The position numbers and the translations under genes are program-made. A stretch of 64,000 nt of DNA from Indolivaga alginatilytica. GTDB lineage: Bacteria; Bacteroidota; Bacteroidia; Bacteroidales; Dysgonomonadaceae. Shown in pieces: positions 24,547 to 38,707 of this stretch. How positions within the stretch are numbered: position 1 is the first letter of the stretch; every line of letters begins with the position of its first letter. The stretch is from contig NZ_QICL01000006.1 in assembly GCF_003201355.1 (NCBI RefSeq), positions 1 to 64,000 on the forward strand, read 5' to 3'. The notes under the pieces were generated by a model, which saw only the letters and a program-made list of their open reading frames with translations, did no database searches and was not told the DNA's origin.

Positions 24547-26166
24547 ATGAAAAAGTTAGTGTTATCCAAGGCTTTATTAGCCTTAGTATTGCTCGTTGCA
24601 TTCTCTTCCTGTAACGATAAAGACGACGAAGGGTCTATTGTTGGCGGTTCGAGTGTTGTTAAAAGTGACGAAGAGGCTGTTGCTCTTGTCAATGGTGTGT
24701 ATGGACCCCTTCAAACGGTTAGTTCTTCTTTCTCGTTTCTTATAGAATCGGCTACTGAGGGTACTATCAGTTTCGAAGGTGAAGAAAATGAAGCTGGACC
24801 TGAGGTGAGTCGCTTCGAAACAAAACCTACAACATGGTACCCTGTTAAAGTTTACAGCCGGCTGTATCAAGCTGTAGGTACTTCTAACGATGCGATAGAA
24901 AAAATAGGTGCTTCGACTGCTGTATCCGAAGCAACCAAAAAAGTCTCCATCGCCAGAGCTAAGTTTCTAAGAGGACTTTCCTATTCGTATCTGGTTCAGC
25001 TATTTGGGGAAGTTCCATTAGTACTACAAACCGGAACTTCAGTAAAAACGCGTTCGTCGATTAATGATGTATATACTCAAATCGTAAAAGACCTGACTGA
25101 AGCAGAGGCTGACTTACCCGAGTATGACAGTAGCCCTATTATTCCATCCAAGGGAGCTGCGAATGCCATTCTAGCAAGAGTATATCTTGCATGGGGACAC
25201 AATCCGTTGACACAAGACCAACTGGCGGAGATAGCCAACAGCTCTTCCGACCCCGTACATGTTCATGTTGATAATGCAAAACTTACGAAGGCTGTAGAGT
25301 ATGCCGATAAAGTGATCAAGAGCGGGAAATACAGTTTGTTGAGCGATTATACCAAATTATTTGGCAGATCGAATGAAAGCAAGGCGCCTGAGCATATCTT
25401 CACAATACGTCACGATGGTGATGCTGTAGATGCACAAGGCAATCACCAGACTCATTGTGCATTTACATTTGCTTTCGACCTTACTAAGGATAACCACATA
25501 GGACCTTCGAATGTTAAGCAACACGATGATTGGGATGCAGCCGATACACGCAGAGAGTTTTCATATACAACGTACTTGGAAAATCCACAGGAAAACAATA
25601 AAGGATATTATTTCTTACCACCTGTTACCCTGCCACGCTTTGGCAAAGGCATCGATCGCAGTTATGAGAACAGCGTAAACCATGCAATCACAACAAATGA
25701 AGTAGATCGTATAGAGATACGTTATGCCGAAGTGTTACTTATCAAAGCCGAAGCATTAGCTGAGTCCGGAAAAACCGGCGAGGCTCTACCTATTATCAAT
25801 CAGGTTCGAGAAAGAGCTTACGGTAATACATTGCATAACCTGAAATCACTTACTGTTGACGATGTTCGTAAAGAATGGGGATATGAGTTTGTTTATGAAC
25901 AAAAGAACTGGTTTAATCTGGTACGTTGGAAAACATTGATAGCAACTGTCAAAACAGTGAAAGACTTCGAACACTTCGATGATTCATATAAAACAGCCGG
26001 AGGAACAGGAAAAGATGGTAGTACTGTTAATGCATTTTTTGCAAAGGTATACAAACATTTGCATGCGAAATATGACAATGTGAGAGGTAAGCATTACCGC
26101 TTTCCGATACCTACAGGAGAGAAAGGTGAAGATTTAGGCATAACACCTCAGAATCCCGGATATTAA
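24547..26166 (+). CDS. SusD/RagB-family lipoprotein
   Basis: A 539-residue SusD homologue with lipobox Cys22 (AFSSC) and an acidic start (NDKDDEG) that fits surface export. Family segments are ARAKFLRGLSYSYLVQLFGEVPLV, GAANAILARVYLAW and EWGYEFVYEQKNWFNLVRW. It forms the lid of the upstream SusC. The neighbouring C11 protease and the lack of glycosidases leave open a role in peptide or glycopeptide uptake, as in RagAB-type systems. Confidence 0.93.
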   Translation: MKKLVLSKALLALVLLVAFSSCNDKDDEGSIVGGSSVVKSDEEAVALVNGVYGPLQTVSSSFSFLIESATEGTISFEGEENEAGPEVSRFETKPTTWYPVKVYSRLYQAVGTSNDAIEKIGASTAVSEATKKVSIARAKFLRGLSYSYLVQLFGEVPLVLQTGTSVKTRSSINDVYTQIVKDLTEAEADLPEYDSSPIIPSKGAANAILARVYLAWGHNPLTQDQLAEIANSSSDPVHVHVDNAKLTKAVEYADKVIKSGKYSLLSDYTKLFGRSNESKAPEHIFTIRHDGDAVDAQGNHQTHCAFTFAFDLTKDNHIGPSNVKQHDDWDAADTRREFSYTTYLENPQENNKGYYFLPPVTLPRFGKGIDRSYENSVNHAITTNEVDRIEIRYAEVLLIKAEALAESGKTGEALPIINQVRERAYGNTLHNLKSLTVDDVRKEWGYEFVYEQKNWFNLVRWKTLIATVKTVKDFEHFDDSYKTAGGTGKDGSTVNAFFAKVYKHLHAKYDNVRGKHYRFPIPTGEKGEDLGITPQNPGY

Positions 26167-26182
26167 AAATATATTATAGGAA

Positions 26183-26215
26183 ATCAAGGGACCCTACATT
26201 TTGTGTGGGATTCCT
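26183..26215 (+). terminator. Imperfect hairpin after susD
   Basis: AAGGGACCCTACA and the downstream TGTGTGGGATTCCTT form an imperfect stem shortly after the susD stop, with T-rich sequence following. It could be a weak terminator. Confidence 0.4.
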
Positions 26216-26344
26216 TGTTTATTATTGCATTAAACTGTAAATAGCTAAGACTTAACTGACATTCTTGAAAAGTAATCCCATTTTGTTGTGGTATCAATAT
26301 ATTATTCTGATTATTTTCTAATATTGATAATAAGATAGGGTATA

Positions 26345-26375
26345 AAAAAGGGTTACAATGATTGTAACCCTTTTT
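26345..26375. terminator. Bidirectional terminator between convergent genes
   Basis: AAAAAGGGTTACAAT (26345-26359) and ATTGTAACCCTTTTT (26361-26375) form a near-continuous palindrome with A- and T-runs on either side. It sits between the plus-strand susD and the minus-strand small membrane protein. Confidence 0.85.
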
Positions 26376-26393
26376 ATATATGATAAATCGATT

Positions 26394-26801
26394 CTATTTT
26401 TTTTCGTATTTCCTTTCAAGTTCTTCTATCTCTTTTTTTAGTCTTTTTCTATGAAAGTAGAATATGACTATATACATAATTATGCTGGAAGCCAATACTC
26501 CCAGGCAAAAAAGAAAGTCTATGCTATTTACTCCCACATAGAAAAAAGTAGCATAAGATAATGATAAGATTGTAATACTTGCTACAATACAATTCAATAT
26601 TTGGATTAATTTATAATCATTCATATTAGATTGCATAACTATGGTACTCATTGCTAAAAAAAGAATCAAAAGACACCCTGTTTTGTCATCTCCTTTAATA
26701 AACATTTTGAGAGGGCTAATAGGCGTCGGAATAACACAAAATGCTATAAAAATAGCTACTATTACTATTAGAATTAAAATATTTTTGTTCTTTTTGCTCA
26801 T
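26394..26801 (-). CDS. Small membrane protein of unknown function
   Basis: A 135-residue protein with four hydrophobic stretches: ILILIVIVAIFIAFCVIP near residue 8, CLLILFLAMSTIVM near 43, ILNCIVASITILSLSYATFFYVG near 68, and FLFCLGVLASSIIMYIVIFYF near 96. It ends in a highly charged helix (KRLKKEIEELERKYEKK). The signal resembles no family I can name. It ends next to a strong terminator, which supports a real gene. No partner is evident. Confidence 0.6.
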   Translation of the reverse strand: MSKKNKNILILIVIVAIFIAFCVIPTPISPLKMFIKGDDKTGCLLILFLAMSTIVMQSNMNDYKLIQILNCIVASITILSLSYATFFYVGVNSIDFLFCLGVLASSIIMYIVIFYFHRKRLKKEIEELERKYEKK

Positions 26802-27240
26802 AATAAGGTTGTTTAGAACTGCAAATATAATATTAAATTCTTATTTAGGTTGCATTTACTCTTCAGATGGAAACAGGCAGATTTATATTAATTCCTGAAA
26901 CAAGTTTGAAATAATCTTACCATCTAGTAGTAAATGTGCAGGAGAGTGAGTTTCTTTAGTAGAATATTTCTCATTGGTGTAGCATTCCTTCCATTTATAT
27001 AAAGCAATCAATATGTCATTAATACAACAGTCTCATAAATTTCGCTCATTTTGTGTGTTAAATAGCACGCTTGAAAGGTGAAGCTATTACTAATTTAGAT
27101 GAAAGACCGATTAGAAAAACAGGAGCAGGGGAATGTATTAACTAATTAATGATATTCCAAACTACTATGAGATCCATCGATATCAATTAAATACGAATTC
27201 ACCCCTATATTCAGTTGAGGATACATCTAAAGTTATAGTT
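26802..27240. other. Gene-poor A+T-rich gap
   Basis: No intact gene is supported. On the minus strand two short open stretches in different frames (around 27060-27010 and 27030-26898, the second ending LLLDGKIISNLFQELI) could be remnants of one frameshifted gene, but no family is recognisable. The gap marks the left edge of the A+T-rich glycosyltransferase and peptide region. Confidence 0.35.
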
Positions 27241-28101
27241 TTAAAAATATAGATAACTAATAAAATCAGAGAATATTTGTTGATCAAATACTTTCAGCTT
27301 TAGATTTTGCTTCATTAATGAATCGAGTATAGGTTTACTGATTTGTTTATTTAAGTTCTTGTTGCGACTCATAAACTGCGAAAAAACAGCCTCTTCATTT
27401 TTAGGTAGACGAAAGCCACAGGTTCTTAGATACTTTATTCTGATTAAATCAGCATAATGACATTGTCGGAAGTAATCTTTTGATGAAATTTGTTTTTCAT
27501 GTATACGGTAATGCATCAAAATATCAGGGGTATTTATAACTTTCCCGATCAAAGATATTTTGCACATCAAATCATAGTCTGAAGAATAATAAAACTCTTC
27601 ATTGTAATAATTTACTTGTGCTAAGACCTCATTTCTTATGATAAGAGAGGGATGTAGAAACATATTGTTTTGTAACAGAAATATTTTTAAAAGAGAATAA
27701 CTTTTCGGCTTTTTCTGAATATAACCGGTATTTATAAATTGAAAGTCTGTTCCCATTGCTAATATTTCAGTATCCTCTTCCATTATTTGGACTTGCCTTT
27801 CTAATCTGTTGGACATGGCAATATCATCCCCATCCATAACACAGATATATTTACCTTTTGCCATTCTGCAACCCTCATTTCTTGCATTATAATTACCTTT
27901 GTTAATTGCTCTGTCGATGTATATAATTCTAGAATCTTTCTCTTCTCTTATCATAGAGGAGGTATTATCTGTAGAGCCATCGTTTATAATGATAAACTCA
28001 AAGTTGTGATAACTTTGATTAAGAATACTATGAATGGCTTCTTTAATGAAGCCCTCAATATTATATACAGGCATTATTACCGAGACCAAAGGTGTTTTCA
28101 T
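27241..28101 (-). CDS. Family 2 glycosyltransferase
   Basis: A 286-residue GT-A enzyme. The N-terminal nucleotide-binding region reads PLVSVIMPVYNIEGFIKEAI, then IIINDGSTDNT and NEGCRMAKGKY, followed by the metal-binding VMDGDDIAMSNR. There is no membrane segment or signal peptide, so it acts in the cytoplasm. It is divergent from the next GT2 gene, with 78 bases between the starts. Donor and acceptor sugars cannot be predicted. It may belong to the peptide-modification cluster to the right or to an unrelated glycan pathway. Confidence 0.85.
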   Translation of the reverse strand: MKTPLVSVIMPVYNIEGFIKEAIHSILNQSYHNFEFIIINDGSTDNTSSMIREEKDSRIIYIDRAINKGNYNARNEGCRMAKGKYICVMDGDDIAMSNRLERQVQIMEEDTEILAMGTDFQFINTGYIQKKPKSYSLLKIFLLQNNMFLHPSLIIRNEVLAQVNYYNEEFYYSSDYDLMCKISLIGKVINTPDILMHYRIHEKQISSKDYFRQCHYADLIRIKYLRTCGFRLPKNEEAVFSQFMSRNKNLNKQISKPILDSLMKQNLKLKVFDQQIFSDFISYLYF

Positions 28102-28179
28102 CTTTTGTGTTTGAAGATATACGAATATACAAAAATATTCTTAACTTTAAGCATTGACCTTTATCTCAACGTTTATGCT

Positions 28180-29043
28180 ATGACTTGGTTAGTTTCTGTA
28201 ATTATACCCACATATAATGTTGAGCTATATCTTGAGGAATGTGTTTTATCTCTTCTGAATCAAACCTATATAAATCTCGAGCTGATTTTTGTCAATGATA
28301 ATTCCACAGATAGGAGTTTAGCTATTTTAAGACAATATCAATTAATTGATAATCGCATAAATATTATTAACTTAGATACCAATAACGGTCCCGGATATGC
28401 CCGTAATATTGGAATTGAAAAAGCTTGTGGTAAATACATCTTTTTTGTTGATGCAGACGATTATATAAATGATGATCTGATTAACAACTTAATAGAACAT
28501 CTAAAGTTTAAGTCGGCTGATATCTTAATATACAATGGTACCTCTTTTGATGAAGATTCTGGAAAGCAGACTAGTATCAAGTATTTTAACTTAGATGAAA
28601 GCTTTTTTAGTTATGGCAAAATAAAATCGAGGTATCAAATGTTTTTGGCTGACTGTCACTCCCCCTGTCTGAAAGTATATCACTGCTCTCTATTTAAAGA
28701 ATCATGCATCAGATTTCCATCTCATGCATATGGTGAGGATGTCGAATTTTGGATAAGATGTTTACTACATACAAAAAAAATCTCCTATATTGATTTTGTT
28801 GGATATCATAGAAGATATAGAACTGGATCTATTATGACTAGTGGGTCACTTAAGAATATAAAAGACAGAATTGATAGTTTCGACACGCTACTGGGAATTT
28901 GCCAACAAAATATTGCTCTTTATAACTATATTGTTGGAATTTATATTCCTTCTGTTGCACGAAAAGCTCTAGCATCAGATAATAAAGCCTTGATTGATTA
29001 TCTGAGCGTAGCGATGAAAGAACTTGAAATTAAATACGATTAA
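28180..29043 (+). CDS. Family 2 glycosyltransferase
   Basis: A 287-residue GT2 enzyme. An earlier in-frame start (28006) would run antisense through the divergent neighbour and add about 58 residues with no GT character, so the ATG at 28180 giving MTWLVSVIIPTYNVE is chosen. Key motifs are FVNDNSTDRS and the DxD equivalent FVDADDYI. Later PCLKVYHCSLF and GEDVEFWIRCL follow the catalytic-loop pattern with an ED acid pair. It is followed 11 bases later by another GT2, so the two are probably co-transcribed. Confidence 0.85.
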   Translation: MTWLVSVIIPTYNVELYLEECVLSLLNQTYINLELIFVNDNSTDRSLAILRQYQLIDNRINIINLDTNNGPGYARNIGIEKACGKYIFFVDADDYINDDLINNLIEHLKFKSADILIYNGTSFDEDSGKQTSIKYFNLDESFFSYGKIKSRYQMFLADCHSPCLKVYHCSLFKESCIRFPSHAYGEDVEFWIRCLLHTKKISYIDFVGYHRRYRTGSIMTSGSLKNIKDRIDSFDTLLGICQQNIALYNYIVGIYIPSVARKALASDNKALIDYLSVAMKELEIKYD

Positions 29044-29054
29044 AATACTATATT

Positions 29055-29918
29055 ATGAAAGCTCCCTCAATAAGTATTGTAATGCCTGTCTATAACTCCT
29101 CACGCTATCTATCGGAATCTATTGACAGTATTTTGTCACAGACTTTTAGCGATTTTGAACTGATTATAATAGATGACGGATCTACAGATGGTAGTCGTGA
29201 AATTATAACAACTAATTATAAAGATTCGAGAATTAGGCTGATAAAAAATGAGCATAACTTTATACAGTCTTTAAATATTGGGATGACTCAATCAAAAGGG
29301 AAATATATAGCCCGTATGGATGCCGACGATATAATGTTACCTGAAAGATTACAAATGCAGTATCATTTTATGGAAGAAAATCCGGATATAGATATTAGTG
29401 GTACCTGGATGCAGGTTTTCGGAGATATGGATGGCATATGGAAAAATACAACGGCGAGTGACGAGATAGAGGTGCAAGCAATACTTCATAGTCCTCTGTA
29501 TCACCCTACCGTTATACTAAAAAGAAGTATTATTACTCAATTTCCATTGGTAAATGATACCAATCAAGTATACAATGAAGAATATATATATGCCGAAGAT
29601 TATCAACTGTGGACCGAGTTAATGAAAAGAGGATATAGATTAACAAATCTGCCTCACGTATTATTGCGATACAGAAAGAGTGAAGGACAAATAAGTCGAC
29701 AAAAGCAAACAGAGATGCAAAATACAACTCTCAGGATACAGACAGAATATCTTGAATATATAATGGACAAGATAGCAAAACTAGATGAAGATTATTATAA
29801 TATGCTAGATCATTCTATAACCTTATGCAATAAAGGTAAAGTTCATTTTATCGATTTACAAAAAATCGTCTATATTATTGCATCTAGAGTTATTCCCGGT
29901 AGTTCTGTTCATCAATAA
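29055..29918 (+). CDS. Family 2 glycosyltransferase
   Basis: A 287-residue GT2 enzyme starting KAPSISIVMPVYNSSRYL, with IIDDGSTDGS, the metal-binding ARMDADDIMLPERL and a catalytic acid region around YAEDYQLWTELMKRGY. The DADD motif and following PERLQMQ resemble cell-surface glycan GTs. It is the last plus-strand gene before the convergent peptide operon. The acceptor is unknown. Confidence 0.86.
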   Translation: MKAPSISIVMPVYNSSRYLSESIDSILSQTFSDFELIIIDDGSTDGSREIITTNYKDSRIRLIKNEHNFIQSLNIGMTQSKGKYIARMDADDIMLPERLQMQYHFMEENPDIDISGTWMQVFGDMDGIWKNTTASDEIEVQAILHSPLYHPTVILKRSIITQFPLVNDTNQVYNEEYIYAEDYQLWTELMKRGYRLTNLPHVLLRYRKSEGQISRQKQTEMQNTTLRIQTEYLEYIMDKIAKLDEDYYNMLDHSITLCNKGKVHFIDLQKIVYIIASRVIPGSSVHQ

Positions 29919-30059
29919 AATAGTTTGTATCTTTTCTGTTGTTGGCACGATATTGCTAATATAAAAAGAGATAAGGGAAGAACCATTATCGATTAGTATA
30001 CTTATTATTTTTTATAATCAGATTAATATAATTCGTGAATGTATTTATCCGGTTATTAA

Positions 30060-30296
30060 CTAGTTGGATATTTGAGTCTTGCATAATCCTGCCGACTGCT
30101 CTGAAAAACCGAGATAATTAGATGAATATACACTGATTCCTACCCCGTTACCGCAATATCCTACATAATAATTAAGACCTCCTCCACAATCAAAACCACC
30201 TTTAAGGGTTTTCATCTCTTTCTCACTCCTAATAAACTGAGAAATGTAACAAATATATTCTGAGTTTTTTTGTAGTGCTGGTATCTTCATAAACAT
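30060..30296 (-). CDS. Double-glycine-leader peptide, putative RiPP precursor
   Basis: A 78-residue peptide whose first 34 residues look like a Bacteroidales GG leader ending EKEMKTLKGG. The putative core (35-78) begins FDCGGGLNYY and is rich in Gly, Ser and Tyr, with three cysteines at 37, 48 and 72. This pattern matches what is known of the natural-product precursors of the GG-Bacteroidales peptide system (TIGR04149-like). The start may be Met1 (30296) or Met3 (30290). It is the last gene of a minus-strand operon, 13 bases after a glycosyltransferase gene that follows a LanC-like gene. No radical SAM maturase or peptidase-containing exporter is in the window. The mature product and its modification are unknown. 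Confidence 0.72.
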   Translation of the reverse strand: MFMKIPALQKNSEYICYISQFIRSEKEMKTLKGGFDCGGGLNYYVGYCGNGVGISVYSSNYLGFSEQSAGLCKTQISN

Positions 30297-30309
30297 AGTT
30301 CTATTAGTT

Positions 30310-31080
30310 TTATATACGATTGTCTATCTCTTCTTTCGAGCTGTTCTTCATTAGTAAATGTTGGCTATCTGATATCTGTTGGGATACAAATGACCGGAAT
30401 TGGCTATTATTCCCTCTTGGATGCCAGAGGTGAAACAAAACTTTATTTGTACGATAGACTTTATAGTTAAGGGCTACAAACCTGAAATGCCTATCAAAGT
30501 CATCATTTCCCCAGCCATAATGTTTTTCATTTTCCATTCCTGCTTGTATATATTTTTCTCGATCTACGATAACTGCTCCGCCAACCAGTAAGTGTGGATA
30601 TAATCTATCCATCTTATTTTGATGCCTATGCAATATTTTCAGATCATTTTTCTTTATAAATAAGGTTCTGATTATTTCTGGTATTTCCAGACATATTCCA
30701 TTATAGGGTAAAGTAATATCTGCTTCTTTATTTCTTAATTTTGTAACTGCCTCTAATATGGCATTTTTGTCAATTACAATATCCGAATCCCAAAGTGCAA
30801 TATAAGGAGACGAAATATCCTTTACCATTTGGTTAAAATATTTTGTTCGATGGAAAATAGGATCCCTATCTTCAATAAAAAGATATCTTACTTTTTTATT
30901 TAGCAGATATTTTAGAATTCCATTGTTATAATTGTCAGCTTCGAGAATAACAATATTGGTGTCAAAGTATCTGCACAAACAATTTATCACTACAATTATA
31001 TTCTCTAATCGTTGAATAGAATCCAACTTTATCGCAATAATAAAAGTTACATCACTTAAATTTGTTTTCATAGTTGACAT
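30310..31080 (-). CDS. GT-A glycosyltransferase in the peptide operon
   Basis: A 256-residue (or 253 from the inner start) enzyme. It has a GT-A fold with the metal-binding motif ALWDSDIVID and a C-terminal GWGNDDFDRHFRF block. That block resembles the galactosyltransferase C-terminal (GWGxEDxD) motif. The inner ATG at 31071 overlaps the TGA of the LanC-like gene as ATGA, a typical translational coupling; the outer ATG at 31080 is also possible. Its tight placement between a LanC-like gene and a GG-leader peptide suggests that it glycosylates the peptide. That is inference; an unlinked glycan role is possible. Confidence 0.78.
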   Translation of the reverse strand: MSTMKTNLSDVTFIIAIKLDSIQRLENIIVVINCLCRYFDTNIVILEADNYNNGILKYLLNKKVRYLFIEDRDPIFHRTKYFNQMVKDISSPYIALWDSDIVIDKNAILEAVTKLRNKEADITLPYNGICLEIPEIIRTLFIKKNDLKILHRHQNKMDRLYPHLLVGGAVIVDREKYIQAGMENEKHYGWGNDDFDRHFRFVALNYKVYRTNKVLFHLWHPRGNNSQFRSFVSQQISDSQHLLMKNSSKEEIDNRI

Positions 31081-32099
31081 TCTTTATTATCAGAAAAATA
31101 TAATGTAGGTATGATACAAAAAATATTTGGTAAATTACCATATTTACTGAGGTATTGAGGGGCTTGTAACAAATTCCATATTCCGGAGGATTCTATTTTA
31201 GAAAATGTCAGATCCGATATAGTGTTTAACTCCTGATCTGTAAATAATTCTTTCAAGTCTTTAATTATAAGATATATACTTGAAATGCCATCCTGAAAAA
31301 ATATATTCTTATCCCTTAGTTCATCATTAAAAATAGAGAAGATATTCAGGCTATTTTTTAGTAGTGTGATATGCCTTGCCCAGTTCTCTAGTTCAATCTC
31401 TTTGTTTACTAAGTTTATAGCCCAAAGCAGTAGCAACTTATTGGCGTTGAGTATTGGAATAGTAGATAGGGCATGATATGATAATTCCTCCAGTATTTTA
31501 GTTACTCGATTATTATAAAATTGAAGTTTATGTAACTTGCTTAATACTGCTAAGAATAATGGAAGTCTGCATTCTTCTATATTATAAGATAATGATTCGT
31601 TGAAGAAATCAGAGTTAATCTGTTGATATATATAATTAACTGTTTGAATAATGATTTCTTGGTATATATAATTATTTTCACTAGAGACTTTCTGATCTTC
31701 GAGCCTCAAACATAAATAATATAAAATAGGTATTAAAGAAGAGCTTGTTAACTGAGTGTAATATCTAGGATAGCTGAGTTGTTTTATAATCTCGTTATCT
31801 ATATCTTCTAACACATGATTAATATTCCCTTCCACATACTTATTTTTGATGAGATAATGAACACCTAAGCCAATGCCGCTTAAACCATCTTTTATATCTA
31901 TCTTTTTCAGTGTTTTGATATTCTCAAAAATATCATCCAGAAGTTTCTCTGCAGCTAATAGATATTCTTTATTATCACTCTTTCTTCCTATATAGAAAAA
32001 ATAGAGGGATAGTCTCATCTTTCCGTGATCAAGTCCAAGAGAATTATTATTCTTTGAAGAGAGTAGGAGTGTCCTGTTCAAAGTCTGCAAATTAAGCAT
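31068..32099 (-). CDS. LanC-like protein, zinc ligands not evident
   Basis: A 343-residue all-helical protein with LanC-type repeat signatures: GLDHGKMRLSLYFFYIGR (22-39), DIKDGLSGIGLGVHYLI (68-84) and FFQDGISSIYLIIKDL (267-282). These match the glycine-hinged inner helices of the alpha/alpha toroid of lanthionine cyclases. The canonical zinc ligands of LanC (a Cys in WCYG and the Cys-His pair of CHG) are not visible; the only cysteines are at 130, 177, 328 and 341. It may be a peptide-binding scaffold instead of a cyclase, or use another chemistry. It is first in the operon, under a good promoter. Confidence 0.72.
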   Translation of the reverse strand: MLNLQTLNRTLLLSSKNNNSLGLDHGKMRLSLYFFYIGRKSDNKEYLLAAEKLLDDIFENIKTLKKIDIKDGLSGIGLGVHYLIKNKYVEGNINHVLEDIDNEIIKQLSYPRYYTQLTSSSLIPILYYLCLRLEDQKVSSENNYIYQEIIIQTVNYIYQQINSDFFNESLSYNIEECRLPLFLAVLSKLHKLQFYNNRVTKILEELSYHALSTIPILNANKLLLLWAINLVNKEIELENWARHITLLKNSLNIFSIFNDELRDKNIFFQDGISSIYLIIKDLKELFTDQELNTISDLTFSKIESSGIWNLLQAPQYLSKYGNLPNIFCIIPTLYFSDNKECQL

Positions 32100-32147
32100 A
32101 GCAGGTTTAATTTAAGGTTATATTGATATCGTAAAGTCTTTGATTTT

Positions 32148-32177
32148 CAAATATAGAATAATATTTCTATGTGCAAA
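32148..32177 (-). promoter_or_regulatory. Bacteroidetes-type promoter for the LanC-like/GT/peptide operon
   Basis: On the minus strand a -33 TTTG (32177-32174) and a -7 box TATATTTG (32155-32148) are separated by 18 bases. They match the TTTG/TAnnTTTG pattern of Bacteroidetes housekeeping promoters. The -7 box lies about 50 bases upstream of the LanC-like start. Confidence 0.65.
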
Positions 32178-32384
32178 AAGAAATGAAGTAATCTTTGCTA
32201 AGTAAATGTGAATAGAGGGCTTAGTGTAGCTACCTGTTTTTTGTTGTTGGGACAGTTATACTGCCGCTATGATAAGAGACCATTGTATTTTGGTATTCAA
32301 TAATTGATGGGTATTGGTGGTCTTGGAATATGAAATATCACCACAAAAGACCCATCGAAGCATAATTTGGCTATGACAGAAAAA
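32178..32384. other. Intergenic gap, no gene seen
   Basis: Between the peptide-operon promoter and the pilus-operon terminator no supported gene was found. A short open stretch with YWWSWNMKYHHKRPIEA (about 32310-32362) faintly resembles a transposase tail but is too short to call. Confidence 0.35.
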
Positions 32385-32403
32385 GCAGGCTCTAAAAGCC
32401 TGC
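32385..32403 (-). terminator. Terminator of the pilus operon
   Basis: GCAGGCT (32385-32391) pairs with AGCCTGC (32397-32403), with a 5-base loop. On the minus strand the stem is followed by a TTTTTC run, 48 bases past the last pilus-operon stop. Confidence 0.75.
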
Positions 32404-32450
32404 TGAGATTATATTTTGTCATACGGGATGTCCCGATAATAGGAGAGGAG

Positions 32451-34097
32451 TTAATGTGCCTGAACGATATATAACATCAGACGTCCCCGATCGTAACGGG
32501 TGAGATAAACTATGCCGACCCGGTCGACTCCCGTATTATTTGCTGTGGCAAATAAATAGTATGGCCCCGGATTGGGACCGGCAATCATAGTTGCACCGCC
32601 TGTTGATGAGTCATTGATTGATGAGAGGGATAACCAGCTTACACTCGCATCATTTACCTGCCCTCCTACATAAATAGGCGTTGCGGAGGAGATCAAGCCT
32701 CCGATCGCTCCTACCGCTGCCGTGGCTCTGGTTACTGCGATCGTCTTTACAATATTACCAATTTTTAATGTGATTGTTCCGGAGGTAAAAGCAGCTGTTA
32801 CACTCATCGTTACATTCCATGAGGTTATATTACCAATTATCGTCGGAGCAGGAACAACAGCTGTTATTCCTCCACTGCCAATAGCACTCAACGTATTTGG
32901 AGAGGAGGCATTGGTCGTTACCGTAACCGCAGGGATTCCGTTGTATGCAAGTTGGTTGGCAAGCATATTTAAACTGGAGTTCGACACGCCCAGATAATAT
33001 TGTCCGTTGTCCAAAATATCGAATGAGTTCAGGTCTGTCACACTGAGAGTCACTTTAATAGCATTTGATGCCGGATTGGCTATTGCCTCTGCTACCGTAG
33101 GATATCCGCTATCTGTAACCGAAGTAATGGTAAAAAGATAATATTTGTTGCGGTACACATTAACCAACTGAGTTGGACCCATAAATACAAGGCGATAGTA
33201 GCCTACAATACCATTGTAGGTTCCTTTGATGATCACTGACGTTGCACGCTCTTGTGACTCATAGAGATATATGGGATTGGCTACAGTTGTGTTATTGGTT
33301 GCCGGAGCTATACCCGTAACGCCGTCACCCGTTGTCGATGTAAGATAGTCGGTCAGATTACCCGCATTACTCTTTATGGCTATCCCAAGATCAGCTAATG
33401 CGCCGTTTCTCGGTGCTCCGACTACTGTTGCTCCGGAAAGTGTGAAAGTGTTGATGACTTCCGAGGCATCGACAGTTACTTTAGCAACAATTCTATTGAT
33501 TGGCAGTGCACTTCCTCCGGCTACTCCGGTACTGTTGATAACGGTATTTTCATTGATTGCAGCGACTACCGGCATTAATGCCGACATCGGGATAGCCAAA
33601 TCCGGAGTATAGGGCACCGTAGTTTGGGGTGAAGCTAGCTGCGGCGAAGTAAGGAGATTAGCGACTGCTGCCGTTAAGGTTTTGCCCGTAAGTTGCGCTG
33701 TCAGATTATTTTGATCAAAAGAAAATGACGTTCCCGAAGCATCTTGAAAATTAGCAGGAGCATTAGCAATAACCAGAATACGGCATGCCGTTGTGGTTTT
33801 GGTTAAGATAACAAATGTTTTTCCATCCAGAACTATAGACTGTTGCACTTCTGAAAATATGGCATTGTTATCGCTACCACTAAAAACAAATACCCACGGC
33901 GTTGCATCTACTGAATTTTCCAATGCCGATCCTATGCGGGTCTCGGGTCTCTCGTAGTTTCCTGCATTTGTAATCAGTTGTATACGCACCTTTCCACCAA
34001 TATCAGGAGTCTCGTCAATAGCAGCGCTTTCCTTAGTGCATGAGCCTAAAGTCAAAAGTACCATTCCCAATATTATGTATTTCAATCTATTAATCAT
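32451..34097 (-). CDS. Fimbrillin-family accessory or tip lipoprotein
   Basis: A 548-residue lipoprotein (Cys20 in LTLGSC). The N-terminal half shows the fimbrillin pattern: an Arg-containing leader region (RPETRIGSALENS), VFVFSG, then CRILVIANAP, with INRIVAKVTVDAS as the second-domain start. The C-terminal third is Thr/Ser/Ala-rich beta sequence resembling tandem Ig or BACON-like domains and ends GRLMLYIVQAH. Type V pilus subunits are exported as lipoproteins and cut by an Arg-gingipain-like protease after an Arg before assembly. This gene is last in the operon, where minor or tip subunits are usually encoded. Confidence 0.75.
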   Translation of the reverse strand: MINRLKYIILGMVLLTLGSCTKESAAIDETPDIGGKVRIQLITNAGNYERPETRIGSALENSVDATPWVFVFSGSDNNAIFSEVQQSIVLDGKTFVILTKTTTACRILVIANAPANFQDASGTSFSFDQNNLTAQLTGKTLTAAVANLLTSPQLASPQTTVPYTPDLAIPMSALMPVVAAINENTVINSTGVAGGSALPINRIVAKVTVDASEVINTFTLSGATVVGAPRNGALADLGIAIKSNAGNLTDYLTSTTGDGVTGIAPATNNTTVANPIYLYESQERATSVIIKGTYNGIVGYYRLVFMGPTQLVNVYRNKYYLFTITSVTDSGYPTVAEAIANPASNAIKVTLSVTDLNSFDILDNGQYYLGVSNSSLNMLANQLAYNGIPAVTVTTNASSPNTLSAIGSGGITAVVPAPTIIGNITSWNVTMSVTAAFTSGTITLKIGNIVKTIAVTRATAAVGAIGGLISSATPIYVGGQVNDASVSWLSLSSINDSSTGGATMIAGPNPGPYYLFATANNTGVDRVGIVYLTRYDRGRLMLYIVQAH

Positions 34098-34164
34098 AAT
34101 AATTATTGTTGCTTTTAAACTGAAAAATACTATCTGCCTGCCATAATATATAAGTCGATATCAA

Positions 34165-36480
34165 TTATTGCTGTATGCAGCGTACCGAAAAAGCACGCGC
34201 TTTAGCATATGTTCCATTGTTTGGTGTAACTGTCGATGAATTAAACAGCAGTATATTGGCATTAGAACCTACTATGTCACTTGTGACATAATTACCGCTA
34301 GACGTAGTTTGCAACCCACCTCCGCTGATACGGTTACCTGCCACCGGTAAAAACACCGAGGCATTGGTGGCAGCATTAAAAAATACTCGTCCGTAAGTTC
34401 CAAACTCATAATTGTTGACGCCTGTAACGTTAGCCGAGCTTTTTACGAGTCTCCTGTCAAAAAAACCGTCGGAATAAAATCCCCACAAGCTATTTCCTGT
34501 ATCGGGTGCAAAGGTGGTAAATTCGGCACCTGTGGGATGACGGTAGCCTGCAGGACATGGATCGTTGTTCGTATTCCAGCTTGCAGCAATGCCGGTCGGA
34601 TATCCTGTAATAGCTCCGGCAGGATTCAACGGATGGAAAACCCGGTTGGCGTTTGCCGTAGAACCATTATAAAGGTTCCATTGGAACATATATCCTACCT
34701 GTGTAGGGAAATCGGCAAAAGTTGTTGAAGATACGGCTGCTCGCGGAGTAAAGAGGTTATGATTGGAAATATCCGCACCTCCCAATCCGCGCAAAGGATC
34801 GGACAGATTGAACGCAGACCATTTGACGGTGCTGTTGATGACACCGGGAGCTTCGCCCTGACGCACATAAAGATAAGAGGTGCCACTAGTCGTAGTAACT
34901 CTTATAAGACCGTAACGGGGTGCAGTGGTTGCCGAAGCAAGTGTACCGGTCAACCCCACGCGGAAATAGATTCTATTGATGCCACTCACAGTGGTTGTGC
35001 CGTCCGTGACCGGATAGTTTTCAGCATTGTTGGGAATATTCGGGCTGTCCAGTCCCAATTTGGGATCAAAACTTCGTCCGGAGCTCAATAGGATGAAGTC
35101 TCCCTGCATTACGGTCGCAGTCCAATCTCCGACGTTATTGGAGTAAACAATGCGTTCTCCGGTTTGATTCCAACGGTGGAATGTTCCTACATACGGAGCG
35201 GTAGACCAAGCGGGCGGTATTGCCGGCAGTACTGTGGTGACAGTTATCTCGCGTCGTAAGCCTCCTGCATTCAGGTATATACGATGAATGTACGTAGTGT
35301 TAGCTACCAATGTTCCGTAAAAAGAGGTATAAATATCTATGTATCCCAAACCTGTAGCCGGATTGTAGTTTAAGTTACCCGCTGTCGGACCTAACAAATC
35401 ATAGAATACATTGTTTACGTTGAACTGTGTAGTGCCGGTAGCTCCCACGTACCCTATAGCATCAACGCTGACGCTGGGCTGATTGGAAGTAAAGTAAATC
35501 CTTGCCCTGTTTCTATCGGTAATGGATGCTGTCAGTGAAGCTACATTCAGTGTGCGATTGGTTATATTGCCATTTACATTTTCCGGACCCCATTCGGCAA
35601 TGCTGATATTTACTTCCATCGGGTAATTCACGATGGCATTTACAATGAAATTGGTATTGGGTGTCATTGTATAATCATTATTATCCTCATCCATTCCGAA
35701 AGTACAGCTTGGGTTGAGATTATCACCTGTAAGAACTGAAAAACCGACAAGCCGGTCTTCCTGATCAGCCGGTGTAAATTTATTTGGCGGTAGAATTACT
35801 CTTTTTACTATTTTAGCCCATGGATATCCTGCGATAACAGTATCTGCAAAATATTCGGGATTTGCGGTTGTCGTAAATATACGTTGTGCTGTATGAGTCC
35901 CTGAATAATTTCCTGTAATAGGTACATTATCAGGTAAATTATGAAATTCAACACCTGTAAAAGTTGTGGATAAGTCTCTTTTAGACTTTAAGACCAAATC
36001 GAACCTTACAGCCAAATGTTCTAATGCTACATGCCAATTACTATAATATACGCCTTCCACCACTACGCCTTCCTGATCGGGTAATACTGTAACATTAGGC
36101 ACATAGAGGGTCATAGGTATATTGTTATCAGAATTTATACCTGACGAAGGAATTTGTATATTATTCAATCCTGCTTGATTTCTTATGGCTTCCAGTGAAT
36201 TAAAAGATTCGTCGGGTGCATTTGCTATAAAGAAAAAATTATATTCACCTGCATGCATATTAAGAGTGACCGTGGTTATATCTCCTGAATAATAAAAATT
36301 ATTCTTTATATTTTGGTCTGTTACATTAAATGCCATTATTCTCAAATTAGAAATTTTACTGTCAGCCCCTATACTTAAAGAAACAGGAGCAGCTATAGGC
36401 GGATTATCATCAGAGCAAGATAATAAAGAAAAAATAGCTATTGTTAGCAAAATTAATTTATGGATATATTTTGGTTTCAT
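34165..36480 (-). CDS. Large pilus-associated lipoprotein with Fib_succ_major-like C-terminus
   Basis: A 771-residue lipoprotein (Cys22 in LLSC). Residues 25-300 follow the fimbrillin plan (ISNLRIMAFNVTD, YNFFFIANAPDESF, LEHLAVRFDLVLKS). Middle repeats are beta-rich, with a BACON-like GTSYLYVRQGEAPG near 560. The C-terminal 200 residues match the Fibrobacter-succinogenes-type major domain often found at adhesive tips: YMFQWNLYN, NDPCPAGYRHPTGAEF and a closing ARAFSVRCIQQ. It lies between the anchor gene and the last accessory gene. A tip adhesin role is inferred. Confidence 0.75.
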   Translation of the reverse strand: MKPKYIHKLILLTIAIFSLLSCSDDNPPIAAPVSLSIGADSKISNLRIMAFNVTDQNIKNNFYYSGDITTVTLNMHAGEYNFFFIANAPDESFNSLEAIRNQAGLNNIQIPSSGINSDNNIPMTLYVPNVTVLPDQEGVVVEGVYYSNWHVALEHLAVRFDLVLKSKRDLSTTFTGVEFHNLPDNVPITGNYSGTHTAQRIFTTTANPEYFADTVIAGYPWAKIVKRVILPPNKFTPADQEDRLVGFSVLTGDNLNPSCTFGMDEDNNDYTMTPNTNFIVNAIVNYPMEVNISIAEWGPENVNGNITNRTLNVASLTASITDRNRARIYFTSNQPSVSVDAIGYVGATGTTQFNVNNVFYDLLGPTAGNLNYNPATGLGYIDIYTSFYGTLVANTTYIHRIYLNAGGLRREITVTTVLPAIPPAWSTAPYVGTFHRWNQTGERIVYSNNVGDWTATVMQGDFILLSSGRSFDPKLGLDSPNIPNNAENYPVTDGTTTVSGINRIYFRVGLTGTLASATTAPRYGLIRVTTTSGTSYLYVRQGEAPGVINSTVKWSAFNLSDPLRGLGGADISNHNLFTPRAAVSSTTFADFPTQVGYMFQWNLYNGSTANANRVFHPLNPAGAITGYPTGIAASWNTNNDPCPAGYRHPTGAEFTTFAPDTGNSLWGFYSDGFFDRRLVKSSANVTGVNNYEFGTYGRVFFNAATNASVFLPVAGNRISGGGLQTTSSGNYVTSDIVGSNANILLFNSSTVTPNNGTYAKARAFSVRCIQQ

Positions 36481-36555
36481 ATATATTCTCCTTCATTTTC
36501 ACATTGTAAATAGTACAAAATATTTAATACTATATTTTAAATAATTAACTATTGC

Positions 36556-37434
36556 TTAGTTAATTATTTTATCCCATTGATGGGTCTGATTCCATTCTGT
36601 ATTTTTTATTGTTACTGATATATCTGCTGAACCATTATATTCAATCAGAAGGTTAAGCGTTTTGTTCTGAATAGTTTGTAGAGGAGAACCATCATTGTCG
36701 GTTGATACCTCATCGATCAATGTACCATCATGGAAAATCTTAACTGAGAAATTTTCCTCTCTTGAAGGAAAAAGACGGAATGTTTTAGCTATAAACTCGT
36801 TTTGTGTATTGAATGATGATTCGGGTATATATGAAGCACCATTGCCATAGTATTGTCCTGTAAAGTCCATATATGTTTTTGTTGTACCAACCACGAAAGA
36901 ATAATTATCGTCGTTGAAACCTGCAAATTTCTTCAGGTTTCTGACTGTAATGTTCATTGAAGCCACAACTCGTGCTACGTATAGTGTGACATATTCATTA
37001 GCCGACTGATTATTAATAACCGGTGCAGAACCAAACAGGATATCGTCCGGAATCTGATAAATATTAGGAGATGATATTCTTCTCAATCTGGCGTAACCGT
37101 CTCTTAAAAAAAGGTCGGGACTCAAGGATGTTATATCTATCGATCCATTCAATGTATTGCACCAGGCCACTACTGTCAATTTCCCGGCATTGGGGTAGGA
37201 TAGAATTTCTGTCTTGCCAAGTTGGGTTTCTTTTGTATCAAGAAATTTTTTGTTTTCATCAAATATATATAGAACAATGTCGTTTACAATCGATTTATCA
37301 TCTGCAGAACCACTGCCCTCGGCAATCTGTACAGTTACTGCTATCTCACACGGTGGCACATCCTCTTTAATGCAAGCATTTGCAATAAGAATCAATGTTG
37401 GAAAAGCGAATAATATGTATAGTGCTTTCTTCAT
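36556..37434 (-). CDS. Mfa2/FimB-like pilus anchor lipoprotein
   Basis: A 292-residue lipoprotein. The ATG at 37434 directly precedes the signal KKALYILFAFPTLILIANAC and is preferred over one at 37473. Lipobox Cys21 is followed by IKEDVPPCE, a spacing typical of the Mfa2/FimB family. Two beta-sandwich domains follow (FDENKKFLD, AGKLTVVAWCN, YVARVVASMNITV). Family members stay lipidated, anchor the pilus to the outer membrane and limit its length. It sits directly after the stalk gene, as in Porphyromonas and Bacteroides clusters. Confidence 0.85.
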   Translation of the reverse strand: MKKALYILFAFPTLILIANACIKEDVPPCEIAVTVQIAEGSGSADDKSIVNDIVLYIFDENKKFLDTKETQLGKTEILSYPNAGKLTVVAWCNTLNGSIDITSLSPDLFLRDGYARLRRISSPNIYQIPDDILFGSAPVINNQSANEYVTLYVARVVASMNITVRNLKKFAGFNDDNYSFVVGTTKTYMDFTGQYYGNGASYIPESSFNTQNEFIAKTFRLFPSREENFSVKIFHDGTLIDEVSTDNDGSPLQTIQNKTLNLLIEYNGSADISVTIKNTEWNQTHQWDKIIN

Positions 37435-37507
37435 ATTCGACAGTTTATATATTCTTTGATTGTTTATTGGCAAGGGATACTTTGGTTTCCCTTGCCAATG
37501 GGGGATA

Positions 37508-38707
37508 TTATTGAATTACTTTATCTACTATAAAAGGAGTCCATAGTGCGCTATTTACAGTAATATCAACATATGCGTTGTCATATATTTCTGTAGGGTC
37601 GGGGCTACCTCCTCCTCCGGTATTTGCATTTCCGGTAAGTGTAATATTAATAACATATTTTTCACCGGAAGCAATTGCATTCGCCAAACCGTCGCTACCA
37701 CCGAAAGCAAATGACCAGAAGTAATTTGGCTCTGTTAAATTGCTTGCATTTCTGGTTTGATTTGGATCATAACGTCCGAAAATTGTTACATATGTTTTAT
37801 TGGTTGTTATGGATGGGAATACATAGAAACCTTCGGTTGCAGTTTGAGCAGCGACAGCCGGTATTGTAACAGCAGATGTCATCGGAAAGTATGTTACCGG
37901 AGCCCATTTATAAATAGGATTTACAACAAAATTTCCGGCTGCGGGTTGGTCTATATAAAGAGCAGGATTTATAAAAATACCATTATAGAAGAATGCTTCT
38001 CCTGCAGGTATTTGTGCTTGTGTTGGTTTAAAATCACCATTATTCATGGTAAAACGAGTCCATGCTCCTCCATTTATTATGGATACACCGTCTAAAATGA
38101 CATTCCCTGAGTCGAAGTTAGTCATTTGATTATTAACTCGCACGTAAATTTTAGCCGGTATATATCCTAGATTTACTGTTGCAGTTCTCAATGCATTACC
38201 GTTGCCATCTACTCCATTTGCCACCAGATTTGCATTACCTGACATCCATACATTTTGGCTGATACATTGACTGCCTACATTAGGATTTCTATCAAGAGCT
38301 GAAACTACAGCATTCAAACTAGCTACATTGGTAACCGCATCAAATGCTCCGGTGGAGAACTGACCGGTATTGGTAATAATGATAACCGAAGTAGCTTTGG
38401 TTGTTCCATTAATTGTAGGAACTGTATTTCCTCCAATTATATCTGCTGCCGGAAAATAGAAAGGACCGGTATCGAAAGTATTATCAGCTCTCACCAAAAA
38501 TACAATCAGGTCATTAATCACATTGTCCTCATCTACAGGATTATTATCTACTGATCTGACTGCGGTTTGAGCTCCTTTCAAAATAAGGTTGATTTTCATT
38601 GGCTCTGGTTTGCTGTCATCTCCATTTTCACCATCTTTATCATTCGAACAGGAAAACAGCATTGTAGTCACTGCGAAGATCGCTAATAAGAATTTAGTTT
38701 TTTTCAT
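37508..38707 (-). CDS. FimA/Mfa1-like major pilus subunit
   Basis: A 399-residue lipoprotein precursor (Cys20 in TMLFSC). After the acidic linker, residues about 35-170 form the first fimbrillin domain (INLILKGAQTAVRSVDNN, with Arg residues that could be the maturation site; then VIIITNTGQF). The second domain follows (GYIPAKIYVRVNNQM, PVTYFPMT, GFYVFPSITTNKTYVTIFGRYD) and ends with a terminal VDITVNSALWTPFIV strand that could donate into the next subunit. First position in the operon agrees with the major stalk subunit. Confidence 0.85.
   Translation of the reverse strand: MKKTKFLLAIFAVTTMLFSCSNDKDGENGDDSKPEPMKINLILKGAQTAVRSVDNNPVDEDNVINDLIVFLVRADNTFDTGPFYFPAADIIGGNTVPTINGTTKATSVIIITNTGQFSTGAFDAVTNVASLNAVVSALDRNPNVGSQCISQNVWMSGNANLVANGVDGNGNALRTATVNLGYIPAKIYVRVNNQMTNFDSGNVILDGVSIINGGAWTRFTMNNGDFKPTQAQIPAGEAFFYNGIFINPALYIDQPAAGNFVVNPIYKWAPVTYFPMTSAVTIPAVAAQTATEGFYVFPSITTNKTYVTIFGRYDPNQTRNASNLTEPNYFWSFAFGGSDGLANAIASGEKYVINITLTGNANTGGGGSPDPTEIYDNAYVDITVNSALWTPFIVDKVIQ

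Follow-up and report, generated by a model that had tools for sequence, protein, structure and literature searches.

A zinc-less LanC-like protein, its partner glycosyltransferase and a GG-leader peptide: a candidate peptide-glycosylation unit in Bacteroidota

The 64,000-nucleotide stretch analysed here (the window; positions 1 to 64,000 of contig NZ_QICL01000006.1 of Indolivaga alginatilytica) holds a compact unit of three minus-strand open reading frames (ORFs) encoding a LanC-like protein, a GT-A glycosyltransferase and a peptide whose leader ends in Gly-Gly (GG). We found that zinc-less LanC-like proteins in Bacteroidota closely adjoin, or are fused to, glycosyltransferases, and that LanC-like lineages track the family of the partner enzyme. 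As this pairing is real, close and widespread, fusions occur and GG peptides accompany the pair, the best reading of the unit is a glycosylated peptide with a LanC-like platform: the unit probably makes a glycosylated, exported peptide, with the zinc-less LanC-like protein presenting the peptide to its cognate glycosyltransferase.

All three ORFs lie where a first-pass annotation, made from the sequence alone, had placed them (Table 1), and its identification of the two proteins as LanC-like and as a GT-A glycosyltransferase was confirmed by profile comparisons. The LanC-like protein matches PF05147 (LANC_like) with 22.1 bits (E 6.7e-5), just below the curated cut-off of 23.2, and a profile of 13 LanC-likes matches residues 638-677 of LicM2 (E 3.4e-6). 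The window protein and six relatives were compared in an alignment with three LanCs of related genomes in which both the WCYG segment and the CHG motif are present; the window protein and all six relatives are without these zinc ligands. Because it lacks the zinc-binding Cys...Cys-His of lanthionine cyclases, the window protein is, judged by its sequence, hardly a lanthionine cyclase. Among 23 columns conserved to at least 80% in 36 relatives it departs at three, with R29, I326 and I329 in place of Gly.

The glycosyltransferase carries a Glyco_transf_7C domain (PF02709, 24.8 bits, above the curated 23), and a five-row profile of the family matches beta-4-galactosyltransferase 7 (E 7.1e-7), the match being confined to the final part (positions 153-211 of 260). 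In an alignment of 48 rows W97, D100, W190, G191, D194, H217, L218 and H220 are invariant and D98 and G189 are conserved to at least 90%; with the domain, a DxD and a GWGxxD motif in place, the enzyme is of the GT7 type. Compared with its 47 relatives it differs at 6 of the 48 columns conserved to at least 80%, one being D193 for Glu within GWGxxD, which is a conservative change. The annotated ATGA overlap (31071-31068) with the LanC-like stop is obtained because the second ATG of the glycosyltransferase gene (31071) is taken as its start, as in all four aligned relatives, which begin there. The annotated 13-base gap between glycosyltransferase and peptide applies to the peptide ATG at 30296, but ATG 30290 is favoured because related peptides mostly begin with MK.

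We examined the neighbourhood of LanC-like genes by a family-level search, which matched 27 of 101 genomes (our own included) and gave 40 stretches. With a glycosyltransferase counted as a partner if it lies on the same strand less than 300 bases away or is fused, and with zinc-less status in all locus counts resting on our own motif pattern, 37 of the 44 zinc-less LanC-likes in these stretches have a partner, compared to 35 of the 320 other genes there. This is the fairer count, since a broader adjacency count (88/100 vs 87/838) mixes in loci that were fetched by their glycosyltransferase. We define a zinc-less LanC-like/glycosyltransferase pair as two such genes that adjoin or are fused, and the window genes, overlapping by four bases, are one. 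An order-level search matched 34 of 393 genomes, and the 29 best-matching stretches outside the window were taken as loci. A glycosyltransferase neighbour or fusion was found in 10 of the 14 loci with a zinc-less LanC-like and without LanB and in 0 of the 15 remaining loci (13 with the zinc motif, 2 beside LanB); the figure of 10 excludes L213, where a 96-residue ORF intervenes, and inclusion of L213 (11/14) gave p 1.1e-5.

The same association emerged when the glycosyltransferase was the starting point. Scanning genome contigs for window-type glycosyltransferases yielded 56 loci, 49 of which hold a LanC-like gene, and 42 of the 47 LanC-like/glycosyltransferase pairs in them overlap or sit at most 15 bases apart. 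Taking these loci together with the window, L044 and L048, 48 of 58 window-type glycosyltransferases with 200 or more residues adjoin a LanC-like gene or are fused to a LanC-like part. For this count and the tree described below L035-L037 were dropped as duplicates of L076, L075 and L085, whereas they were kept in the 37/44 count; near-copies (such as L107/L108, L117-L119 and L124/L125) were retained. The conserved neighbourhood for which the first-pass annotation had called thus exists as a close and widespread LanC-like/glycosyltransferase pairing, accompanied by GG peptides in 28 of the 56 loci.

The pairing is specific, as LanC-like lineages track the family of their partner glycosyltransferase. 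In a tree of 90 zinc-less LanC-likes (81 labelled rows; proteins shorter than 180 or longer than 430 residues or with CHG were left out) the partner family changes 9 times, compared to 30.5 times with shuffled labels and with 0 of 200 shuffles as low, in a set where the loci come from two kinds of search, so that the label mix is not a natural sample, where near-copies add clustering and where many branches are weak. Three clusters hold two pairs each (L044, L117 and L129); in each of them one LanC-like lies by a window-type enzyme and the other by a GT4-type enzyme, and the two LanC-likes stand apart on the tree.

In a Parabacteroides distasonis record such a pair goes under the names "lanthionine synthetase LanC family protein" and "galactosyltransferase-related protein"; next in the row come a family A glycosyltransferase and an ATP-binding cassette (ABC) transporter with a peptidase domain. 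The sequences NZ_OY725771.1 and NZ_OY725766.1 of this species, both filed as plasmids, each hold a LanC-like/glycosyltransferase pair; NZ_OY725771.1 includes lysS, gmk and other housekeeping genes and resembles a piece of a chromosome.

In some relatives the two partners form one polypeptide. Six LanC-like proteins longer than 430 residues also match a glycosyltransferase model, and in those of L042, L077 and L120 Pfam detects both a glycosyltransferase and a LANC_like part, the latter with 18.8-22.4 bits, below 23.2. On the complete chromosome of Bacteroides fragilis Q1F2 a single chain (L129:8726-10762) combines a family-2 enzyme, a LanC-like part (226-403, iE 1.2e-30 with a model built without fusions; Pfam is blind to it at E 0.01) and a window-type glycosyltransferase (424-671, iE 1.5e-88). 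The closest Protein Data Bank (PDB) match of the fused glycosyltransferase domain of L042 is human polypeptide N-acetylgalactosaminyl (GalNAc)-transferase 2 (E 1.5e-13), whose substrates are peptides, and L043 and L052 share 39 and 42% identity with L042. When the fusion alignment was searched against the phylum (61 of 395 genomes matched) most matches spanned the glycosyltransferase half only, and we used only the match on contig C21 of our own genome. There, a gene resembling polypeptide GalNAc-transferases (E 2.1e-13), a 77-residue GG peptide and a radical S-adenosylmethionine (SAM)/SPASM gene lie in a row (L198:9401-11989); a LanC-like gene was not found in the 19.5 kb stretch around them.

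GG peptides were sought among small ORFs, those lying mostly inside larger ORFs being left out. A leader hidden Markov model (HMM) built from 15 peptides found at other loci gives at least 8 bits to 39 of 608 small ORFs (56 loci plus the window region), as opposed to 0.1 per shuffled set, and 11.1 bits to the window peptide. The comparison with TIGR04149 that had been suggested for this peptide did give a match (21.7 bits, E 1.4e-4), albeit under the cut-off of 25 and covering only profile positions 18-42 of 43. Among five peptides of LanC-like/glycosyltransferase loci that were compared with this model, those of L075, L081 and L126 are above the cut-off (64.3 bits for L126, 32.1 and 30.7 bits for the other two) and those of L083 and L090 below it. 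In L126 the strong peptide (64.3 bits) begins 66 bases past the glycosyltransferase, in the same gene order as in the window. In Dysgonomonas capnocytophagoides a TIGR04149 peptide (32.1 bits) accompanies a LanC-like gene, a glycosyltransferase and a gene for an S41-type peptidase; the fetched stretch gave no match for an exporter or for radical SAM, and C39 proteins are encoded elsewhere in that genome. S41-type peptidase genes adjoin LanC-like/GG-peptide loci at L036:10469-11840, seemingly split into two ORFs, and at L040:15975-17351.

The predicted core of the window peptide contains 9 Gly, 6 Ser, 1 Thr, 3 Cys and 5 Tyr, and the Ser, Thr, Cys and Tyr residues are possible sugar acceptors. 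For the ORF, annotated with 78 residues, a search of 5 other genomes of the genus, including one that is 62% complete, found no full-length relative; 3 of the 5 gave partial matches (E 0.003 to 0.35). Among 949 small ORFs taken from related loci and from the window region, the next best match has an E of 0.0092.

Genes for export and further modification are frequent around the pair, as judged by our own models. C39-motif exporters of at least 300 residues occur in 16 of the 56 loci, found with a motif pattern of our own that may miss some, and exporter-type ABC proteins of at least 300 residues in 24, these 16 among them; a looser exporter count (29/56) took in fragments and plain ABC proteins. 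HlyD-type proteins of at least 150 residues are present in 20 loci and radical SAM matches in 18; 40 loci show one or more of the four features GG peptide, radical SAM, HlyD-type protein and C39-motif exporter. The local absence of such genes noted by the first-pass annotation was borne out within the range scanned: a Pfam scan of the 12 ORFs of 24547-38707 found no radical SAM gene among them, and no PF03412 (C39) match was found on the window contig (C6), so that the unit lacks the clustered C39 exporter of glycocins. The term "minimal", however, fits the arrangement only locally, as exporters or radical SAM genes are frequent in the loci of relatives and our own genome has three C39 matches elsewhere, two of which are full-length exporters. 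The exporter on contig C1 is 68% identical to that of the LanC-like/glycosyltransferase locus L035, the other full-length exporter 50%.

Two further gene groups with GG peptides were observed in our own genome. On contig C37 (L165:6993-14138) four GG peptides of 40-41 residues are grouped with a 787-residue protein, a C39 exporter, a short HlyD-type protein and a PapB-like radical SAM gene, and on C1 (L164:5627-11778) a 51-residue GG peptide with an FxsB/YhhB-like radical SAM gene, a C39 exporter and an HlyD-type gene.

We propose the following course of events. The GG-leader peptide would be made on the ribosome and bound, by its leader or core, by the zinc-less LanC-like protein, which would hold it against the cognate glycosyltransferase. 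This enzyme would decorate the Gly/Cys-rich core with at least one sugar, on Ser, Thr, Tyr or Cys. Cleavage after Gly-Gly and export of the core would then fall to a C39-peptidase ABC exporter; here it would act in trans, the C1 exporter being the most likely one, and the product may serve as bacteriocin or signal. For the glycosylated peptide on a LanC-like platform that the first-pass annotation had put forward, pairing, fusions and GG peptides thus speak in favour, while glycosylation itself is a prediction from sequence. Less firmly, we lean towards the view that the unit represents a class of ribosomally synthesized and post-translationally modified peptides (RiPPs) of Bacteroidota whose dead LanC fold would serve peptide glycosyltransferases of four or more families as a general subunit that presents the peptide, separate or fused and replacing a lectin or RiPP recognition element (RRE) domain, with the window as its exporter-less three-gene form.

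Several observations weigh against the proposal. Ten of the 58 window-type glycosyltransferases have no LanC-like beside them, implying that the enzyme does not in every case require one close by. Relatives of the enzyme with ~31% identity occur in 28 cyanophage records (five among the matches listed) and others with 28-32% identity on Azospirillum plasmids, so the family as a whole is not peptide-specific and extends wider than peptide use. In 16 of the 56 loci (8 stretches of more than 10 kb and 8 of less than 7 kb) none of GG peptide, radical SAM, HlyD-type protein and C39-motif exporter was found; a looser count gives 11/56. The window peptide is the weak link, with its sub-threshold TIGR04149 score, an atypical N-terminal leader and no full-length relative in the five congeners, and the GG peptides scanned on C1, C37 (two of four) and C21 of our own genome gave no TIGR04149 match. 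Finally, the three glycines lost from the window LanC-like are near-invariant; their loss may reflect decay or a copy that has specialised.

Some of these points would also fit a LanC-like/glycosyltransferase pair that decorates a cell-surface glycan, with GG peptide and exporters as chance neighbours or parts of a mixed island. The phage and Azospirillum relatives and the 16 loci without peptide-related features (strict count) agree with this, as do three further glycosyltransferase genes within 3 kb of the unit. We nevertheless regard it as unlikely, since the remaining 40 loci hold at least one of these features, LanC is a family of peptide-acting enzymes, and the fused glycosyltransferase domain of one relative has its closest match in polypeptide GalNAc-transferases. 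It is similarly doubtful that the window copy is what remains of a formerly complete cluster, now in decay and without a product, a reading under which our proposal may still hold for the relatives. The lost glycines, the atypical leader of the sub-threshold peptide and the lack of a C39 exporter on the contig and of radical SAM among the neighbouring ORFs scanned would suit a remnant. On the other hand, each of the three genes has an open frame and the spacing between them is tight, the glycosyltransferase departs at few of its well conserved columns, and exporters are encoded elsewhere in the genome. Moreover, D. capnocytophagoides, L081, L103 and L115 likewise combine LanC-like, glycosyltransferase and GG peptide, with no exporter or radical SAM gene found in the fetched stretch.

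That the LanC-like is a cyclase after all, working on a lanthipeptide with a dehydratase supplied from elsewhere, is highly improbable. The family likeness and the Ser, Thr and Cys residues of the core would allow it, but the zinc ligands and the segment around them are gone, and none of the 13 order-wide loci with a zinc-motif LanC has an adjoining glycosyltransferase. In addition, the LanB N-terminal domain PF04738 was not found in our own genome or the congener G030, yet the same model detects it in G014, G032 and G034; an earlier LanB search without these three genomes had a silent control and is not relied on alone. With the zinc site lost and LanB not found in our own genome, the lanthipeptide reading was rejected.

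LanB-type dehydratases do occur in Bacteroidales, as the PF04738 matches in G014, G032 and G034 document; PMC10352776 reported none in the order. By our own model a LanB-type gene lies beside a zinc-motif LanC in B. fragilis Q1F2 (L129:11949-15321), and LanB-type loci are also L049, L073 and L043.

The coordinates of the unit and its surroundings are compiled in Table 1. The pattern of the promoter-like site, whose consensus we take to be that of Bacteroidetes promoters, occurs 7 times in the window compared to 2.7 expected, and the stem search found 1 terminator-like stem vs 0.9 expected in shuffles, so neither signal is beyond suggestive. The three adjacent family-2 glycosyltransferases are possible sugar-extension enzymes and might be tied to the peptide. 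Upstream of the unit a row of fimbrial genes (FimA/Mfa2-type) extends over 32451-38707 on the minus strand, of which only Mfa2 is above the Pfam cut-off.

Table 1. Features of the LanC-like/glycosyltransferase/GG-peptide unit and its flanks in the window
Feature	Position	Strand	Description or basis
LanC-like protein	31068..32099	-	343 aa, without the zinc ligands; would present the peptide to the glycosyltransferase
GT-A glycosyltransferase, beta-4-galactosyltransferase (GT7 C-terminal) type	30310..31071	-	253 aa from ATG 31071 (256 aa from 31080)
GG-leader precursor peptide	30060..30290	-	76 aa from ATG 30290 (78 aa from 30296)
Peptide leader, ends SEKEMKTLKGG	30195..30290	-	Sequence; GG site by likeness to TIGR04149
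Predicted core, 44 residues	30063..30194	-	Composition; putative cleavage after GG
Promoter-like site TTTG-N18-TATATTTG, Bacteroidetes-type	32148..32177	-	48 bases upstream of the LanC-like ATG
Terminator-like stem, between fimbrial genes and unit	32384..32404	-	Stem search of 29700-32500
Three family-2 glycosyltransferase genes adjoining the unit	27241-28101, 28006-29043, 29055-29918	-, +, +	PF00535 in all three

The first-pass annotation had called the arrangement apparently undescribed, which is true in part. PMC10352776 already counts areas with radical SAM and LanC (rSAM+LanC) and with a glycosyltransferase in addition (rSAM+LanC+GlyS) in Bacteroidales, and it describes the LanCs of three clusters as lacking zinc motifs and as more like endoglucanases. 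PMC7268733, to the extent of the text available, left LanC-like genes without lanthipeptide partners unclassified and noted that some clusters with ABC transporters and proteases may make an uncharacterised RiPP class. An account of LanC-likes as partners of glycosyltransferases was not found in the titles, abstract openings and paper sections covered by the literature search, which most subscription papers lie outside. If our proposal is true, LanC-like genes set aside by surveys would point to many secreted peptides in Bacteroidota that bear sugars, the pair would be a small system for sugaring peptides, and the LanC fold would have a new job, holding a peptide for another enzyme. The puzzle of zinc-less LanCs raised by PMC10352776 becomes directly testable.

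The unit shares features with several known systems. The rSAM+LanC+GlyS areas and clusters BGC3-5 of PMC10352776 resemble it in their zinc-less LanC-likes with GG peptides, with glycosyltransferases in BGC3; they differ in that the LanCs were judged endoglucanase-like and that the available text reports a vicinity of carbohydrate-active enzymes (CAZymes), but no glycosyltransferase adjacency, fusion or partner specificity. Like the glycocins (glycocin F, thermoglycocin; PMC12457901) the proposed system would combine a ribosomal peptide with a leader, a glycosyltransferase and a C39 exporter, whereas the window enzyme is of the beta-4-galactosyltransferase type and the words LanC and Bacteroid are never used in that paper. 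With the GG-Bacteroidales precursors (TIGR04149) and their radical SAM maturases the window shares the leader ending in LKGG, the Cys/Gly-rich core and the phylum Bacteroidota, and some peptides of related loci pass the model. In contrast, the window peptide stays below the cut-off and, with radical SAM not found in the 12 neighbouring ORFs, the LanC-like/glycosyltransferase pair stands in its place. To the class I lanthipeptide cyclase LanC the window protein is related by sequence family, but it has lost the zinc-binding Cys...Cys-His and a dehydratase was not found. Polypeptide GalNAc-transferases, finally, carry a lectin domain. They are matched by the fused relative L042, whereas the window enzyme itself is nearer to beta-4-galactosyltransferases, and in that fusion the LanC-like domain occupies the place of the lectin domain.

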